Of a DNA stretch of 64,000 nucleotides, positions 53,589 to 63,006 are shown one piece after another. The DNA comes from Synechococcus sp. AG-670-B23 (GTDB lineage Bacteria > Cyanobacteriota > Cyanobacteriia > PCC-6307 > Cyanobiaceae). Made by a program: the position numbers and the translations under genes. Position 1 is the stretch's first letter. Each line of letters starts with the position of its first letter. The stretch spans positions 19,032 to 83,031 of the forward strand of contig QCSL01000003.1 of NCBI GenBank assembly GCA_003209165.1, given 5' to 3'. The notes below the pieces were generated by a model, which was not told the DNA's origin, searched no databases, and saw only the letters and a list, made by a program, of their open reading frames with translations.

Positions 53589-54251
53589 ATGCGATTACGT
53601 TATTTATCCGATAGCTATCGTCTTTCACGCTCCTTTCTAGTCGGAACTGTTTCAACTGTCGTATTCTTGCCACTTCTTTCCTTCAGGGAAACCCTAACGT
53701 TCGGAATAACCCTGGCTTTGGCTTGGGATTTGATTGTCTTTTTTCGTAGAACATGGCTACTTGGTAATGTCCATACCAGAGAAATTCTTTCTTGCTCTAA
53801 GGCCAGAGAGTCATTGGTCGCAGAGAGAACCATTGCATTTGTTTTTCTCAGTCTTGGATTGTTGAGCTTTTGCCTTACAGAGCTTCATTCGTCCCAGGGT
53901 GCCCTACCAAAACATTTCCATGTTTTTACTGCTTTTTTGGCTTTGTTCTTAATGTGGTTGGAGCTGCACAATGGATTTGCTCTTTATTATGCCAAAAGGT
54001 ATTACGAAATGAATCCTTATCCGCTAGCCACTGATGATACGCAACACGGATTCATTATCGAAGGTAAGGAGCCATCATTTAGTGATTTCTTGTACATAGC
54101 TTATTCGATTGGTTTGACATATTCGATGACTGATTGTGGTTTAGAAGATGCATCTGTACGTCGCATTGTCCTTATTCATTGTCTTTCGTCGTTCCTATTT
54201 GCATCGACAATCTTTTCAATTATTTTGTCTCTTGTTACACAGGTTACCTAA
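53589..54251 (+). CDS. DUF1345 family membrane protein
   Basis: FALYYAKRYYE...PSFSDFLYIAYSIGLTYSMTDCGLEDASVRRIVLIHCLSSFLFASTIFSIILSLV. Confidence 0.75.
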   Translation: MRLRYLSDSYRLSRSFLVGTVSTVVFLPLLSFRETLTFGITLALAWDLIVFFRRTWLLGNVHTREILSCSKARESLVAERTIAFVFLSLGLLSFCLTELHSSQGALPKHFHVFTAFLALFLMWLELHNGFALYYAKRYYEMNPYPLATDDTQHGFIIEGKEPSFSDFLYIAYSIGLTYSMTDCGLEDASVRRIVLIHCLSSFLFASTIFSIILSLVTQVT

Positions 54252-54368: not shown

Positions 54369-54692
54369 ATGATTTTTAGTGGCATGTTCGAATTAGAATA
54401 CCTGGTTGCATTCGCTTTGGGGGCTAGTTTGGTAGCCATCACACCCATTGCCGCATCTATGACAGGTCGTGAGAGCAAATTGACCAAAGCAATTTCAGGA
54501 GCAGGGCGAGGCATTACAAAGCAAGGTTTAAAAGTTGGGATCGTGGTCGGATCCAAGGCATCTGGTCTTTTGACAGGTGTGAAGTCTGGTTTGAGCGAAG
54601 TTGGTGAAAGCTTCGGAGATATCCTTGCAGAAGCTAAGGCTGATCTGGCTGAGACCAAATCATCGAAAGCTTCCGGAACTACCAAGGCTTGA
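54369..54692 (+). CDS. PacL/DUF5132-like small membrane-anchored protein A (start at 54369 or 54384)
   Basis: MFELEYLVAFALGASLVAITPIAAS...KQGLKVGIVVGSKASGLLTGVKSGLSEVGESFGDILAEAKADLAE; same pattern as the ORF at 56235. Confidence 0.75.
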   Translation: MIFSGMFELEYLVAFALGASLVAITPIAASMTGRESKLTKAISGAGRGITKQGLKVGIVVGSKASGLLTGVKSGLSEVGESFGDILAEAKADLAETKSSKASGTTKA

Positions 54693-55138
54693 AGGTTTCG
54701 ATTAAACACGCCACAAAAGCGCGAGTAAGATTCAAATTTCCGAGAACTCTGTCGCCTCAAGAATTTAATTTACTGCATGCGACAATACAGTATAGATATT
54801 CAGGTCTGGAAATATTTCCATCATCGTGTCGATCAGGATGTGTTGTTCGTAGAGCAACCGACAAACAAATTGATTCCGAAGTACTCTTAGATGAGTTAGA
54901 CGGCTTTTTTCAAGAATGTTTTCCTTTCGGTCCCGCACTGCCACCTACCCGTTTTGAATCTTTTCGTCTGCAGGCTGTAAACGTCAGTATTCAAGGATCA
55001 CTTATTTTGGCAGTATTAGGTTGGATTTTGCCGATCCTTCCTGGCACTCCTTTTTTCCTTGTTGCATGGTGGTTGGGGTGGAGACCATCCTCGGATTCCT
55101 CTAAAAATGTTAATGTTAACCAGCACGATTTTATTTGA
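54689..55138 (+). CDS. HMA2-like domain protein with LPxxPG hydrophobic hairpin
   Basis: IKHATKARVRFKFPRTL...YSGLEIFPSSCRSGCVVRRAT followed by ILAVLGWILPILPGTPFFLVAWWLGW; TTG start overlapping the previous stop (TTGA). Confidence 0.65.
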   Translation: MKVSIKHATKARVRFKFPRTLSPQEFNLLHATIQYRYSGLEIFPSSCRSGCVVRRATDKQIDSEVLLDELDGFFQECFPFGPALPPTRFESFRLQAVNVSIQGSLILAVLGWILPILPGTPFFLVAWWLGWRPSSDSSKNVNVNQHDFI

Positions 55139-56142
55139 GCACGTTCACATCGCATCCTCTTCCACGCCTCAGGGATTTCTATTGATCGGTGATTACCCTG
55201 ATAAATGAGATGAATATTTTCGAGAGTTTGTTTGATTTTTAGAAAGTTTTTTTGGACCCCAGGCATAAAGATATGGATGGATATATCTTCTTTGTTGATG
55301 AATATTGTCTGTCGACTAGAGGGGGTTTGCACTAGCATTTGTGCGATATTTTGCTGTTTCTCTTCATGCCATTCAATAACTGTGAATGGGCTATCGGAGC
55401 AGTTAATTTTAATTTGCTCTACGATCAGCTTTTCTGCATCTTGAATAACGAGATGTGTTGGGAATGTGCCATGTAGTGCAAAGGTGCTGAATCGGTGCTG
55501 CAGTTGATCAAGGTTTCTCGATTCCTGGTCGATGAAACAAATAAAATTGTGCTGATTCCTCTGTGAAGTAATTCTCTGTAGTGTTTCAAGCTTTTTCTTC
55601 CACGCATCTTCTAATCGTAATTTATTTGAGGAGGGTAGATTGAGTCGAAACATTTTTTCTACGGTTGATAAAGACTTGCGTGTCTTATCCCACCAATTCA
55701 ATAGGGGGTCGACAAGTTGTTCAACAAGATCGGGTCCTTTTTGTGCCATCTGCAGAAGCTTGATGGCGTGCAGAGGGTGAGGAAGGATCACCATTAGAAC
55801 GTTAAAGTCTTTGTGTTCATCAATGACTTGTGCAAGTTTGATGATACGTGTCAGGTCTTCGATCCCAGGTAGGAAAGGCAATTCCAAGGAATCTTTGTCT
55901 TCAAGGCCTAAGAGTTTCCACCATTCCAAAGCGTGTGGGCTTAACATCATCCAAACATTTTCGACCATTTGACTATGATCGAAGTATGAGATTGTTGAGT
56001 TTTTGGTATCTAATAATAGGTTTAATCTCTCTCCAGACATGTCGACAACCATTAATTTTCTTCCGTTTTTTAAATGAGTTGCAGTCGAGGTAACAACTTT
56101 CTGTAATGCTTGATACCTATCAGCGCTGGCAAAGATGATCAA
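54991..56142 (-). CDS. ArsA/Get3-like ATPase homologue with degenerate P-loop and C-terminal HSP20-like domain (TTG start)
   Basis: IIFASADRYQALQKVVTSTATHLKNGRKLMVVDMSGERLNLLLD resembles ArsA beta1/P-loop region without GKGGVGKT; ELPFLPGIEDLTRIIKLAQVI; C-terminal DISIHIFMPGV...RSIEIPEAWKR...SCWLTLTFLEE. Confidence 0.65.
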   Translation of the reverse strand: MIIFASADRYQALQKVVTSTATHLKNGRKLMVVDMSGERLNLLLDTKNSTISYFDHSQMVENVWMMLSPHALEWWKLLGLEDKDSLELPFLPGIEDLTRIIKLAQVIDEHKDFNVLMVILPHPLHAIKLLQMAQKGPDLVEQLVDPLLNWWDKTRKSLSTVEKMFRLNLPSSNKLRLEDAWKKKLETLQRITSQRNQHNFICFIDQESRNLDQLQHRFSTFALHGTFPTHLVIQDAEKLIVEQIKINCSDSPFTVIEWHEEKQQNIAQMLVQTPSSRQTIFINKEDISIHIFMPGVQKNFLKIKQTLENIHLIYQGNHRSIEIPEAWKRMRCERAQIKSCWLTLTFLEESEDGLHPNHHATRKKGVPGRIGKIQPNTAKISDP

Positions 56143-56234: not shown

Positions 56235-56576
56235 ATGTTCGAGCTTGAAACGATTGCAGCCTTTGGAGCTGGTGCTGCACTTATGGCAATGGCGCCTGTT
56301 GTTCGAAAGTTAGGCAATCAAGAGCTCGGGGATTCGATGGGACAAGCTGGTCGGACAATGGCGAAGAGTGGTGTGAAAATTGGTCTTGTAGCTGTCGGTA
56401 CAGCAGAAAAAGTTGCCAAAGGTGTAGCCAAAAGCGCTGCGGAAGCGGCTGAAACATTTGTCGATTTGGTTGAAGAGGCGAAATCTGAAAACTCCAGTAC
56501 CGAGGATGTTGCAGTATCAAAGATCACAAAAAATGAATCAGCAGCTCCCACCATCACTGACGTTACTTTGGAATAA
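56235..56576 (+). CDS. PacL/DUF5132-like small membrane-anchored protein B
   Basis: MFELETIAAFGAGAALMAMAPVVRKLGNQELGDSMGQAGRTMAKSGVKIGLVAVGTAEKVAKGVAKSAAEAAETFVDLVEEAK; directly upstream of the P-ATPase gene. Confidence 0.78.
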   Translation: MFELETIAAFGAGAALMAMAPVVRKLGNQELGDSMGQAGRTMAKSGVKIGLVAVGTAEKVAKGVAKSAAEAAETFVDLVEEAKSENSSTEDVAVSKITKNESAAPTITDVTLE

Positions 56577-56626: not shown

Positions 56627-59134
56627 ATGGCTACTTCCTACCAATTGCCTTCTGATTTTGAAGTATTCGATGGAGGAGTACCGGCTTCGAATGGTCATCC
56701 GAAGAGGGGTTTGCCGCGTTTCGTTGACAGAGTTCTTCATGCATCGAAGCATCGATTGAGATTTAGCGTTGAATCCGATTTTGGAGACTTTGATAATTTC
56801 GAGCGTCATCTGCATTCTCTTCCTAGCGTTCTTCGCGTACGCTCAAACAAGTGGGCTTGTTGTTACGTCATTGTTTTTAAAGAGGATTCAGCAACTGACC
56901 CACTTCAGTGGTTGCTTGCTTTGCCTCAGCTTAAGAGCGACATCCCTGTTGTGTCTGAAGCTAATGGGTCGTCTTCGTCTTCGTCTTCGTCTTCATCTTC
57001 TATCGAAGGAATTGGTGAGGATGATGAGGAAAAATTTGTTCCGACGCGCATCATTTTGCCCGTCTGCTCCTTAGGTTTGGCCATTCTGGCTGGACCTCTT
57101 TCGCTTCCTCCTTTGGCGATAGGCATTTTTATCATCGGTTCGGCGCATCTCAGCTTCAGGCGTGCCTGGTCTGGTCTCAAACATGAAAAGAAAATCAACG
57201 TAGATTTTCTCGATGCATTGGCTGTTCTTCTGCACAGCCTCGAGGGATTCCTTCTCGGGCCAGCGATGATGATAACGATGATTGAGGGCGGTGAGGCAGT
57301 TCGTGATGCGACCCAGCGAATTGCTCATTCCTCCAACACTGATCTTGTCTCCAGTCTCCAGTCGGATGTCCGTTTGATTACTGACGAAGGTGAAGTGATT
57401 GTTTCCAGCTTTGACCTGTCTCCAGGAGATCGAGTGTCATTCCTCCCCGGCGACAAGATTCCCATTGATGGTGTGATCATGTCTGGTGAAGCATCACTTG
57501 ATGTTGTCAAACTGACTGGTGAGTCTGTTCCGAGAATCTCGGGTCCTGGAGATGAGATTCTTGCTGGTTTTATAGTTCTTGAAGGGAATTTGGTTGTCAC
57601 GACAACGGCTGTTGGCGATGACACAAGGGTTGGTCAAATCACAAAGATGATTGAATCGGCGCCTGTGTTCGACACACGCGTCGGCAATTTTGCTGCCAAC
57701 ATCGCTAACCGCTTTGTATTGCCAACACTTGCTCTCGCTGGAGTCTCGTTGCTCTTAAGTGCAGGCAATATCGCTCAGGCTGCATCACTTCTAATGTTTG
57801 ACCTTGGTACCGGGCTTCGTGTTTCTGTGCCAACTGCAATCATGGCTGCTTTGGCCCGTGCAGGTAGCCAGGGTCTTTTAATTCGGAGTGGTCGCGCCCT
57901 CGAGCAATTGGTTGACGTCGATGTGGTGGTCTTCGACAAGACTGGAACTCTCACGGAAGGACACCCTTCTGTAGTTCACTTCGCCATCTTTGATACTAAG
58001 GGCCGTCCCATCGAGACCGTCTCCGATGCTCGCCGCAAGGAACTCTTGCAACTTTCAACCTCTTTGGAGCAAGGGCTCAATCATCCAATTGCCAAGGCGA
58101 TTCGTGATTCTGCAGAGCATGAGAAGATCGATGTCATCCCCTGTGACGTTTGGGACTACAGGGTTGGCCGTGGTGTCGTTGCCAGTATCAATGGAAAACA
58201 AGCATTGCTTGGGAATTCCAAACTTCTTTTTGAGGAAGGAGTTGAAATCCCTTCAATCGAAGAGCACACCGATCTTGCTGTGGCGACACCGATCTACCTG
58301 GCCCTGGATGGGGTACTGGTAGGTATCCACTACGCTCTCGATCGTGTTAGGCCTGATACTCCAGATTTGATTGCGGAGCTTCATCGCCGCGGCATGGAGG
58401 CCCATATGCTTACCGGTGACATCGGCCCAGTGGCACATGCTGTGGCTGCAGAAATCGGGCTGAAGCCTGAAGAAGTGCATTCGGATGCACTTCCTGATCA
58501 GAAGGCTGAATTGGTCCAGCACTTCACCTCTCAAGGGAAGAAGGTTGTTTTCGTTGGAGATGGCATCAACGATTCCGCTGCACTGGCCTATGCAGATGTG
58601 TCAGTGTCCTTTGCCTCTGGAAGTGACTTAGCCAGGGAAACCGCCGATGTTGTTCTAACCAACGATCGCGTGTCCGATCTGATTGTGGCTCAGGATCTTG
58701 CCCGTCATACTTTTGCTCTCGTAAAGCAGAACATCGGGATTGTCGGTGTCCCGAACTTGTCTGCACTGGTCATTGGAACCTTCCTCCCTGTCAGCCCAAT
58801 CGCAGCCGTATTCCTTAACAACGGTTCTTGTTTGGTGGCCGCCGGCAATGCCATCAGAGCCCTGGGCTTTAAGGCCAAGGCACTACCGTCTGCAAACCCT
58901 TCCACGTGTAAAGATCTCGTTAATGTCGTGGCCTCTGATTTGGATCCCGATTCTCAGCCAATCCGTGATCTTGACCTCTCTGGGTTGGCAAAACGCGTTG
59001 GTCTGAGTTATCAGAAGATTTCGGCCCGAAGACGACGTTCTGATTTTAGCGATTGGATAGCTAAGCACGATCCAGACGGCCATGCTTGGGAATACTGTTC
59101 AAAGCGAAAATCTTTCTCGGTGATTGCAGCCTGA
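56627..59134 (+). CDS. CtpC-like heavy-metal P-type ATPase with HMA2-like N-terminus
   Basis: TGES, DKTGTLT, NHPIAKAI (HP locus), MLTGD, GDGINDSAAL motifs; N-terminal HASKHRLRFSV...; TM4 reads MFDLGTGLRVSVPTA. Confidence 0.93.
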   Translation: MATSYQLPSDFEVFDGGVPASNGHPKRGLPRFVDRVLHASKHRLRFSVESDFGDFDNFERHLHSLPSVLRVRSNKWACCYVIVFKEDSATDPLQWLLALPQLKSDIPVVSEANGSSSSSSSSSSSIEGIGEDDEEKFVPTRIILPVCSLGLAILAGPLSLPPLAIGIFIIGSAHLSFRRAWSGLKHEKKINVDFLDALAVLLHSLEGFLLGPAMMITMIEGGEAVRDATQRIAHSSNTDLVSSLQSDVRLITDEGEVIVSSFDLSPGDRVSFLPGDKIPIDGVIMSGEASLDVVKLTGESVPRISGPGDEILAGFIVLEGNLVVTTTAVGDDTRVGQITKMIESAPVFDTRVGNFAANIANRFVLPTLALAGVSLLLSAGNIAQAASLLMFDLGTGLRVSVPTAIMAALARAGSQGLLIRSGRALEQLVDVDVVVFDKTGTLTEGHPSVVHFAIFDTKGRPIETVSDARRKELLQLSTSLEQGLNHPIAKAIRDSAEHEKIDVIPCDVWDYRVGRGVVASINGKQALLGNSKLLFEEGVEIPSIEEHTDLAVATPIYLALDGVLVGIHYALDRVRPDTPDLIAELHRRGMEAHMLTGDIGPVAHAVAAEIGLKPEEVHSDALPDQKAELVQHFTSQGKKVVFVGDGINDSAALAYADVSVSFASGSDLARETADVVLTNDRVSDLIVAQDLARHTFALVKQNIGIVGVPNLSALVIGTFLPVSPIAAVFLNNGSCLVAAGNAIRALGFKAKALPSANPSTCKDLVNVVASDLDPDSQPIRDLDLSGLAKRVGLSYQKISARRRRSDFSDWIAKHDPDGHAWEYCSKRKSFSVIAA
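56969..57002 (+). repeat. In-frame (TCGTCT)n repeat encoding an 11-Ser linker in the P-ATPase
   Basis: tcgtct x4, tcatct, tct read directly. Confidence 0.92.
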
Positions 59135-59136
59135 TC

Positions 59137-59661
59137 ATGACCTCAAGGTTGGTTCTGAAGCACCAAACCCCAACACGCTGGCGCTTTTGTGTTGACTCCT
59201 CTGTTCCACTGAACTGGGCGCTGTTGCAACTGGATTTAGAGGATGCCTTCCCATCCCACCAGTGGTGTCTTCGGCTTAACCAATCCAAATGCCTGATTGT
59301 GATCAGCTCTAGATCATCTTTATCTATTAATCCAGACTATTCATTTGAGTTTGTCTACTCTGCGCTCGTCGATCAACTTAACCATCAAGGGTGCCAGTTG
59401 TCTACGATTCCACTGAGCAAGGTAGAGGTGCTCAAACCGTCTCCGAACCGCGTTTGGTTGAAGGTTCGGTCATTTCTCTATCCCGTTGTGAACGCATTCT
59501 CGGCTTCATTGTCCTTGGGATGTCTTCTATTGGCTTCTGTGGCATTTGCTCTTGGGCTGGTTGGCCTCTATCTCCCCCTGTTTCCAGGTCTGTTGATCAT
59601 GCTGCTCTCCACTTTTTTATTTGAAACTGCCCTGGACTTGCGTCGCCCCTTCGTTGCTTGA
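59137..59661 (+). CDS. HMA2-like domain protein with LPxxPG hydrophobic hairpin (second copy)
   Basis: LVLKHQTPTRWRFCVDSSVPLNWALLQLDLEDAFPSHQWCLRLNQSKCLIVIS; C-terminal GLVGLYLPLFPGLLIMLLSTFLFE; 2 nt after the P-ATPase stop. Confidence 0.65.
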   Translation: MTSRLVLKHQTPTRWRFCVDSSVPLNWALLQLDLEDAFPSHQWCLRLNQSKCLIVISSRSSLSINPDYSFEFVYSALVDQLNHQGCQLSTIPLSKVEVLKPSPNRVWLKVRSFLYPVVNAFSASLSLGCLLLASVAFALGLVGLYLPLFPGLLIMLLSTFLFETALDLRRPFVA

Positions 59662-59670
59662 AGTGATCCC

Positions 59671-61779
59671 ATGACGACTTCGATACTTGCTGATAACCCT
59701 TGGCAGATTCGCAGTGATTTGTATGGACGTCTCAGGATTTTTCATCCCGGTCTTTCAGACTCTCCCGGGTTACGTCGCCATTGCTCCGGTGTGCTTCATC
59801 GTACCCACTGGTTACTGAGCCACCGCATCAATGGCCTCTCTGGAACGCTTGTGCTTCGCTTTCCTGCCAACGAGCAAAACAAGATCGATCTATTGCTCAG
59901 GCGATGTTTTGTAGATCCTTTTGCAGATTCGAGCTTTGAGAGTCTGCTCTCAGCCGAATCGTCAACCACAGATATTGTCAGGAGTTCTCCTTTCCTATCG
60001 GCCTTAAAAACAGGTGCCACTTGTAGCTCGATTCTGCTGATTAACTCACTGGTGCCCTTTCCTCCTTTGGCATTGGGACTTGCGGCCACAATATTCTGTT
60101 TTCCTTTGTTGCGGGAGTTCTGGTCGCAGATGCGTGATCGCTGGTTGTCCAGCGGAAATGCTGTCGCTTCCTATCTGTTGCCATCCTCGTCTGTGGAAGT
60201 GGCTTTGTCGGCGACCCTGATCTCATCGGGCCTGGCTCAGGAGCTTCTGGTTGATAATCTACTTGGCAGCACGACGTCTGCTCTTCAGTCGTTGTCTAAG
60301 AACACCGATGGTTCCAGTCTCGAGTTCTTTGATTTTCTGGAGCGTTTCAAAACCTCGGTTTTTCTGTCGTGCGAGTCCCAAGAACAAAACGAGCCCCAGC
60401 TTGTTCCCATTGGTGATGTTCAGGTTGGTCAACGCTATGAAATCAACAATAAATGCCACATTTATTTAACATCGAAACTCGTTGAAGGTGAATTGGTTGT
60501 TTTGAATAATCTTGCTGATGGATCAAAGTTGCCATTCCGTGCTTGCCCTGGGTATCATCTTCCTTTCGGGGCTACTGTCCTACACGGAAGCGCCATCGCA
60601 GAAGTGACGACGGCTTTCGTTGATATTCCAGTATTTAAAATCCAAAACACCTTGTTTGAGGAGGAGTCTCTCACCGAATATCAGCAATCTGTGTCCTCTC
60701 TATATCGGTTATTTGTCCCTCCTATTCAGTTGGGATTAGCAGCTTGGTCATTGTTCAGTGGCTTCACAGAACGTGCGATTGGTGTTCTTGCTTTTAACCC
60801 TGCACAAGATTCCGAGCGCTCCCGAATGTCCTCGGCTGAAACCGCTCTAATTGATATGCGTCTCAATAGTGTGCATATATCCGATATTCGAGCACTGAAA
60901 ACCCTTTCCGATTTGAATACTCTTTTGATAAGTATTGATGCTCTTCAATATTTCGGAAATTATAGCTATTCAGAAATTCTTCCCTCTGTCACTTCAGCAC
61001 AGCCAGGCGACATGCTTCGTATGCTGAGTTCCGTTGCTGACTATTTGAGGGCAGACCCAACAACTGTTTTTTGGGGAGTTCTTGGAGCGCAGTCGGTGGA
61101 GGCTTGGCCTGTTGACCATTTGGAGATTACATCTGATCAACCTGAATGCTGTGCGTATAACGTTGATTTCAGCAATGGTAAATCTGTTCGGATTCAATTT
61201 TCGAACGATAGTGATGACGTGATAATTCGATTTGAAGGTCAAGCTGAGACATTGGGCTCTCTTCTTATTCGTTGGATTCCAGATCCTGATTACGATCAAA
61301 TGGTAAATGATCTGGCTTTTCTCGGTGTCTCTGTTCAAGTGGTTGGAACTCACGCCGCTCGCCTGCGAGAACCAAATAATCGCCTGTTGTCCGTCTCCAA
61401 GCGTCGTCAAGCAGGCGAAAAGGTGGCTTACCTCGGGAATGTCATTGATGACATTTCAGCCATGGCTGCTGCAGAAGTAGCAATCGGCTTTGAGGAGGAT
61501 CCCGATGGTTTTATTTCAAAAACGGTATGTGATGTCATTCTTGCAAGCGATCTTAATTGGCTGCCGCGTTTAATCGCTCTGGGCCGTAATTATGAGCGAT
61601 CAGTGCAGGTGAATACGAATCTTATCGTTAGTTCGTCTATCATTCTGACTCTCGCCGCTTTTGTGTTCACTTTGAATCCACTACAATTGATTTTTTTGTT
61701 TAATGCACCTGGTGTAATCGCTGAGTTGAATACGCTGAGATCGTTGTCTCCAAATTGCTCTCGTTTGAGATCTATTTAG
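59671..61779 (+). CDS. Catalytically degenerate P-type ATPase paralogue (pseudo-ATPase)
   Basis: Colinear with the upstream P-ATPase (RALKTLSDLNTLLISIDALQYFGN against RALEQLVDVDVVVFDKTGTLTEG; VAYLGNVIDDISAMAAAEVAIGF against VVFVGDGINDSAALAYADVSVSF), intact 702-codon frame. Confidence 0.85.
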   Translation: MTTSILADNPWQIRSDLYGRLRIFHPGLSDSPGLRRHCSGVLHRTHWLLSHRINGLSGTLVLRFPANEQNKIDLLLRRCFVDPFADSSFESLLSAESSTTDIVRSSPFLSALKTGATCSSILLINSLVPFPPLALGLAATIFCFPLLREFWSQMRDRWLSSGNAVASYLLPSSSVEVALSATLISSGLAQELLVDNLLGSTTSALQSLSKNTDGSSLEFFDFLERFKTSVFLSCESQEQNEPQLVPIGDVQVGQRYEINNKCHIYLTSKLVEGELVVLNNLADGSKLPFRACPGYHLPFGATVLHGSAIAEVTTAFVDIPVFKIQNTLFEEESLTEYQQSVSSLYRLFVPPIQLGLAAWSLFSGFTERAIGVLAFNPAQDSERSRMSSAETALIDMRLNSVHISDIRALKTLSDLNTLLISIDALQYFGNYSYSEILPSVTSAQPGDMLRMLSSVADYLRADPTTVFWGVLGAQSVEAWPVDHLEITSDQPECCAYNVDFSNGKSVRIQFSNDSDDVIIRFEGQAETLGSLLIRWIPDPDYDQMVNDLAFLGVSVQVVGTHAARLREPNNRLLSVSKRRQAGEKVAYLGNVIDDISAMAAAEVAIGFEEDPDGFISKTVCDVILASDLNWLPRLIALGRNYERSVQVNTNLIVSSSIILTLAAFVFTLNPLQLIFLFNAPGVIAELNTLRSLSPNCSRLRSI

Positions 61780-61800: not shown

Positions 61801-62403
61801 TTATGTTGCAAGAATTTTGACGCCTAGCGCGATAAAAAGAATGCCGCTACAAAAAGACAATTTCTTGTAGCTTAGGTGGTTCCTCAAGAGTTTTCCTGAT
61901 GAAACAGCTGCAATGGCGAGCAATATATTGGCTGCAACGGCCCCAGAAAAAATGCTTGAGGCAGAAATGTTTGGGCCTGCCGCTAGGGCTAATAGGGCTA
62001 GCTGAGTGCGATCCCCGAATTCAGCCAAGAAGGTTGTTGTAAATGAGTCACGAATGACAATTTCAGCCCCTTGGTCTCCCGCGTCGCACATTAATTTCTC
62101 CGATGTTAGTTTCGCGTCTATCTCAGGGTTTGAATGACATTGGTAGACCTGATTCAGCGCGAGTGCACCAAATGCTAAAAATGTAATTCCAGATACAAAT
62201 TTGACTGTATCTGTTGAGACCAAGGTGTTTAGCCATGCACCCATCCCGATCCAAAGTCCGGCTCCGATTGTGAGTGCAGACACGCTTCCAACAAAAACCC
62301 AACGGGCCTTGTGGCGTGCTGCTAAGGCTAGAGCGGTTAAAAATGATTTATCTCCGATGCCTGCCAGGGCTACGGTCGCAAAAGCAGTCGTAAACCCAGT
62401 CAC
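61801..62403 (-). CDS. UPF0016 (GDT1/Mnx-like) cation transporter (GTG start)
   Basis: Two repeat motifs: AGIGDKSFLTALALAARH and AEFGDRTQLALLALAA. Confidence 0.88.
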   Translation of the reverse strand: MTGFTTAFATVALAGIGDKSFLTALALAARHKARWVFVGSVSALTIGAGLWIGMGAWLNTLVSTDTVKFVSGITFLAFGALALNQVYQCHSNPEIDAKLTSEKLMCDAGDQGAEIVIRDSFTTTFLAEFGDRTQLALLALAAGPNISASSIFSGAVAANILLAIAAVSSGKLLRNHLSYKKLSFCSGILFIALGVKILAT

Positions 62404-62484: not shown

Positions 62485-63006
62485 TCAGCTCGCCTGTCGC
62501 GCTTTCCAGCTCAGGCGCTGCCCTGGTCGTGAAACCTTTTCAAATTCAAGTCCCATGCGCCTGAAGCCGACGGCTCCGTCGTCTAATGGTTCCAGTGATG
62601 GCAGTCGTTTGAGCTCCAGTAGCGAGCAAATTTCATGACTTGTCAGCTCGATTTCCGTCGATCGAAGTAGGTCAAGGACTTCAATTCTCTCTCTTAGTAA
62701 CCGTAGCTTCGAATACTTTTTGAACTCTTCGTCCACAGTTCCACCACCCTGATTACTTGTCACCATCAACTCATTGTTGGGAGTGGATGGTTCAACGGTG
62801 ACCACTTCAGCAACCAAGGGCTCTTGGGGATCGCTTCTGCCCAGGTGCTGATAGATGAGGCCAGTTTCCTCTTGTTTGATCCAGGTCCTCATCCCTTTGC
62901 GAACGGGCTGAATTCCCAATTCCCGGATTACCAGAAGCAGATCAACCCGTGATAGTCCAAGTGACGCCTCCAGGCTTCCTAGGCTGATCACAGCTTGCTG
63001 TTCCAT
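62485..63006 (-). CDS. Hypothetical protein, possibly DNA-binding
   Basis: SLGSLEASLGLSRVDLLLVIRELGIQPVRKGMRTWI resembles an HTH/MerR-like start; 173 aa intact frame. Confidence 0.5.
   Translation of the reverse strand: MEQQAVISLGSLEASLGLSRVDLLLVIRELGIQPVRKGMRTWIKQEETGLIYQHLGRSDPQEPLVAEVVTVEPSTPNNELMVTSNQGGGTVDEEFKKYSKLRLLRERIEVLDLLRSTEIELTSHEICSLLELKRLPSLEPLDDGAVGFRRMGLEFEKVSRPGQRLSWKARQAS

Follow-up and report, generated by a model that had tools for sequence, protein, structure and literature searches.

P-type ATPases are generally regarded as catalytic chains sufficient in themselves, and the pseudoenzyme concept is known from kinases and proteases. A search of the open-access literature returned nothing on pseudoenzyme P-type ATPases, on DUF5132 or on the family described herein, and no description of a P-type ATPase pseudoenzyme that is conserved, full-length and under selection was found within it. 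Amongst the closest described systems are bacterial efflux platforms; in those of mycobacteria, PacL proteins, which are single-span and carry E/A repeats, cluster P1B ATPases via their N-terminal domains (PMC9374683, PMC13043812). Both CtpC/CtpG with PacL (DUF1490) and a P1B6-ATPase with DUF6110 pair a P1B ATPase with a small, single-span, E/A-tailed protein, as part of a platform of several ATPases; passages of the same two sources that deal with these platforms contain no dead ATPase-like member. Closer to the cyanobacteria considered here, a cyanobacterial module, exemplified by that on the Gloeothece verrucosa plasmid NC_014533, combines a P1B ATPase with DUF1345, DUF5132 and HMA2-domain companions.

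The window, a stretch of 64,000 nt from the 2.27 Mb genome of Synechococcus sp. AG-670-B23, harbours a cassette with the same pairing of a P1B ATPase and small single-span proteins with E/A tails. It differs from the PacL and DUF6110 platforms in that the small proteins are DUF5132 members and in that one ATPase-like component is predicted to be catalytically dead. The companions of the plasmid module are likewise present, but the picocyanobacterial cassette adds to them a degenerate B-type ATPase, as well as an ArsA-like protein devoid of a Walker A loop.

Gene content and order

The cassette begins at its edge with a conserved DUF1345 membrane protein (53589–54251, forward strand), followed on the same strand by DUF5132 small protein a (54369–54692), a paralogue of the second DUF5132 protein, and by a DUF454-like membrane protein of 149 aa (54689–55138). 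An ArsA/Get3-like protein is encoded on the reverse strand (54991–56142). Neither it nor any relative inspected possesses a Walker A loop; it displays an omega of 0.167 and is, to judge from its sequence, a second degenerate NTPase of the cassette under selection. Thereafter come, all on the forward strand, DUF5132-like small protein b (56235–56576), with one hydrophobic segment, an E/A-rich tail and a PacL-like layout, the active A-type P1B ATPase (56627–59134), p191 (59137–59661) and, last in the row, the pseudo-P-type ATPase (59671–61779). The p191 product is DUF454-like, with a soluble N-terminus and then a hydrophobic stretch; its ORF was listed from a TTG at 59086, with the ATG at 59137 being the likelier start. 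In almost every picocyanobacterial cassette this gene separates the active from the pseudo gene; in the window, the pseudo gene starts 9 bases beyond it. A GDT1-family cation/proton antiporter gene (61801–62403, reverse strand) follows 21 bases downstream of the pseudo gene, with the two being convergent in the marine clade, and beyond this lies p173 (62485–63006, reverse strand), which has no Pfam or PHROG match and is a possible regulator. The order from DUF1345 to the pseudo gene is kept in six of the seven genomes of the genus that possess the cassette, and recurs slightly modified in other genera. In the seventh, a fragmented MAG (G022), the cassette is without the pseudo gene, which is found on another contig.

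The active A-type ATPase, of 835 aa, has intact TGES, DKTGTLT, HP, TGD and GDGIND motifs, and is itself unusual in its TM4, FDLGTGLRVSVP, where LGTGLRVSVP occupies the position at which a CPC motif would be expected. With no CPC present, its metal specificity is not readable from sequence; its AlphaFold model has a pLDDT of 43.

Erosion of the catalytic motifs

The pseudo-ATPase ORF encodes 702 aa without an internal stop, just as the sequence-only reading of this DNA had described. To follow the fate of its motifs, 44 A-type sequences were aligned with 26 main-clade and five further pseudo-ATPases. All 44 A-type controls retain the phosphorylated Asp, TGE, HP, the TM4 Pro and both Asp residues of GDGxND. 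The phosphorylated Asp of DKTGT is absent from all 31 pseudo-ATPases, being replaced by Ser in 24 and Thr in seven, and the Lys that follows it, the HP His of P1B ATP binding and the TM4 Pro are missing from every one of the 31. The TM4 region is now charged, reading FNPxxDxExS. The TGES Glu is gone from all but two of the pseudo-ATPases, with ADGS in its place in the window, as had been read. The first Asp of GDGxND is lost from 21/31, whilst the last (D594) is kept in 31/31. For this motif the change from GDGIND to GNVIDD holds for the window, but the five more distant of seven close orthologues read GDVxxD, and motif IV is therefore less eroded there. The proposed equivalence of DKTGTLT with DALQYFG was, by contrast, two residues off: D437, the phosphorylated Asp of the active ATPase, pairs with S421, invariant across the seven close orthologues, and not with D423. 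The latter is Asn in three of these seven and was rejected as a remnant of the phosphorylated Asp.

From these losses the pseudo-ATPase is predicted to possess no working catalytic motif. One might still suppose that catalysis persists through unorthodox residues, such as a displaced Asp or the conserved Ser/Thr, given that D594 is universal and that the phosphorylated Asp is always exchanged for Ser or Thr. The inconstancy of D423, the complete loss of the DKT Lys, HP motif and TM4 Pro, and the near-complete loss of the TGES Glu together with that of the first GDG Asp in most members make this very improbable.

Ancestry and predicted fold

The pseudo-ATPase comprises an HMA2-like N-terminus (residues 10–80), a degenerate A domain (239–363), P and N domains (about 400–645) and C-terminal membrane helices (646–692). 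Against the window protein, PF00122 (A domain) scores 4.5e-5, which is under its curated cut-off; across the family it is found at E ≤ 0.001 in 18/23 members, with a best value of 1.6e-9. TIGR01512 matches residues 567–692, corresponding to the C-terminal P domain plus M5/M6, at 2e-9. Amongst solved structures, a search with the family profile matches ATP7B (3e-19) and CopA (3e-17). The nearest folds to an AlphaFold2 model are likewise P1B ATPases (ATP7B, E 1.5e-22; ZntA, E 3e-22), in keeping with the P-ATPase fold anticipated for this protein, although the model is modest, and its pLDDT of 62 and whole-chain TM-scores of 0.3–0.4 against P1B structures support the fold family only and not the domain arrangement. 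Profiles, solved structures and this low-confidence model agree in identifying the pseudo-ATPase as a divergent homologue of P1B-type ATPases, and its ancestry is significant by several routes. In domain layout, in PF00122 and TIGR01512 similarity and in predicted fold it resembles CopA/ATP7B and ZntA; unlike these, it has no phosphorylated Asp, TGE, HP or TM4 Pro, its GDG is eroded, and it should be incapable of the P-type cycle. Its description as a paralogue of the adjacent ATPase is correct as regards homology, but at ~24 % identity over the C-terminal 135 aa the relationship is a distant one.

Selection on the pseudo-ATPase

Loss of every catalytic motif, together with fast divergence (orthologues share about 46–52 % identity, against 74–78 % for the active partner), is what might be expected of a decaying pseudogene that has stayed open by chance. 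The evolutionary record speaks strongly against this. Codon maximum likelihood across seven orthologues yields an omega of 0.107 for the pseudo-ATPase, with omega=1 costing 701 log-likelihood units and neutrality strongly rejected; for the active ATPase omega is 0.037, and fixing it at 1 costs 1745 units. Pairwise dN/dS for close pairs from four genera is 0.12–0.25, and a second, more divergent pseudo type in genus g34 displays 0.05 (L085 versus L086). All 26 main-clade copies found, across genera, are full-length and open, none of the orthologues is frameshifted, and invariant residues include D594, C620–D621, W630 and R633. Simple decay, to which virtually no credence can be given, is ruled out by omega and the intact frames. 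With its catalytic motifs lost and its frame intact under purifying selection, the protein is a conserved P-type ATPase pseudoenzyme with a predicted loss of activity, and the earlier suggestion of a retained non-catalytic function is strongly supported.

An old partner lineage

Many cyanobacteria, across the class, encode both an A-type ATPase (LDxGTG[IL]R[VI]S) and a B-type one, in some cases side by side, and the gene order DUF5132-A-B recurs in distant families (L124, L128). B-type sequences occur in several states: with intact GDGIND, with GEGxND, with a D-to-A exchange giving FAKTGTLT or FARTGNLT (L129, L128), and in the fully degenerate picocyanobacterial form. Pseudo, D-to-A and B-type sequences all fall on one side of a branch with support of 99/95.7, which places the pseudo-ATPase, as far as the tree can tell, in an old partner (B-type) lineage. 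The sequence-only reading had implied that the pseudo gene arose by copying of its active neighbour and later degenerated; this separate and older lineage speaks otherwise, and recent duplication of the neighbour is ruled out by the tree and the ~24 % identity. Long branches leave the details of the tree uncertain, and as a single clade of all Asp-less sequences is not rejected (p-AU 0.318), independent losses of the Asp are not claimed.

Two B-type sequences (L128:3309-5552 and L129:2911-5157) appear as half-way forms, having Ala for the phosphorylated Asp whilst a good deal of the DKTGT and TGE surroundings is retained. In larger cyanobacteria, FGE-sulfatase-domain proteins are encoded beside B-type ATPases (L120:2408-3649, L121:5742-7946, L122:7521-8780).

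Distribution and co-occurrence

Profile searches detected the pseudo-ATPase and the active A-type ATPase in an identical set of 22 of 251 family genomes, a count in which shared ancestry reduces the number of independent events; in two of these, G157 and G181, it is the more divergent pseudo type that accompanies the active ATPase. DUF5132b and p173 are restricted to the same seven of 34 genus genomes, all cassette-bearing. The cassette occurs in six genera, with a patchy distribution inside the genus of the window, and the co-occurrence of its genes indicates that it is gained or lost as a unit. As the pseudo-ATPase occurs solely in genomes that also have the working pump, and is under selection, it probably helps that pump, and co-occurrence along with gene linkage strongly implies a partner role with the active ATPase.

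Public records place the pseudo gene in relatives belonging to Vulcanococcus, Cyanobium and Synechococcus, which suggests a picocyanobacterial host near to marine Synechococcus. A pseudo-ATPase alignment matched 15 loci in genome contigs, whilst a single protein query matched none; amongst the plasmids searched, none carries a pseudo-ATPase. The divergent second pseudo type is located at L085:5041-7167, L086:5347-7473, L087:12589-14811, L088:8564-10813 and L089:1-2239. Two contigs assigned to MAGs of Deltaproteobacteria and Rhodopirellula (L139 and L148) contain a pseudo gene at 53 % and 46 % identity, respectively, and are probably mis-binned Synechococcus sequence.

Extra pseudo copies outside of the cassette exist in three genomes of genus g9 (L070:8029-11572, L072:8477-14233, L077:8965-12408), next to a gene of 383–384 aa that belongs to the Na/Ca-exchanger family in L070 and L072. 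Together with the relocation in G022, these copies indicate that the pseudo-ATPase need not be tied to the A-type pump. Relocation, the extra copies (two of them beside an exchanger) and a conserved N-terminal H-C...H-W motif would all suit a protein that no longer uses ATP and works on its own, apart from the active ATPase, as a metal sensor, receptor or passive conduit. Such independence is nonetheless unlikely, as the pseudo-ATPase never occurs without an A-type ATPase in the 251 family genomes, and the charged TM4 region, which forms the ion path of P-ATPases, is unsuited to a conduit.

Inverted conservation and a putative adaptor role

Conservation is inverted between the two partners. 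In A-type proteins the membrane and catalytic core are the most conserved (regional identity 0.7–0.9), followed by the N domain (0.55) and lastly the N-terminus (0.33), whereas in the pseudo-ATPases identity is highest at the N-terminus (0.48) and lowest in the nucleotide-binding domain (0.28). Invariant N-terminal residues of the pseudo-ATPases are R20, R22, H37, W47 and R52-I53-N54, with C38 and H46 near-invariant. That this region is the best conserved points to binding or docking, with the remainder serving as a membrane frame. DUF5132 proteins, for their part, have a single hydrophobic segment rich in Gly, and their acidic/Ala tail is conserved, with an AEAxESFxDLVAEAK layout. The layout and gene linkage of a PacL-type platform are seen here, though a DUF1490 or DUF6110 protein is not; the cassette small proteins match DUF5132 only, and as this has no detectable sequence relation to either of those families, the PacL parallel is one of layout only.

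Inverted conservation and the PacL-like layout of DUF5132 favour a non-catalytic adaptor within an efflux platform. The best explanation, and a rather probable one, is that the pseudo-ATPase serves the active pump as an adaptor or regulatory subunit on a PacL-like scaffolded metal platform. For its biochemical role, and for the metal, we infer the following arrangement. Keeping its P1B layout, the pseudo-ATPase should neither form a phospho-enzyme nor bind ATP in the usual way, and should also fail at dephosphorylation and at ion gating through TM4. It would be a non-catalytic membrane subunit alongside the active pump, its HMA2-like N-terminus docking or handing over metal, whilst the single-span DUF5132 proteins would serve as PacL-like scaffolds that keep the active ATPase and the pseudo-ATPase together within a single efflux platform. 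More tentatively, and with rather less confidence than is accorded to the adaptor role, the pseudo-ATPase could be a required, catalytically inert component of a heteromeric P-type pump, derived from an ancient P1B pair of which one half gave up catalysis, with the cyanobacterial stages being intact, weakened, D-to-A and fully degenerate.

Should the pseudo-ATPase partner the active pump, the pseudoenzyme concept would be extended to the P-type ATPase superfamily. If true, related cyanobacteria would also constitute a natural experiment, in that they hold the partner at successive stages of catalytic loss. For the organisms themselves, an uncharacterised cassette of metal type sets apart closely related Synechococcus-like genomes.
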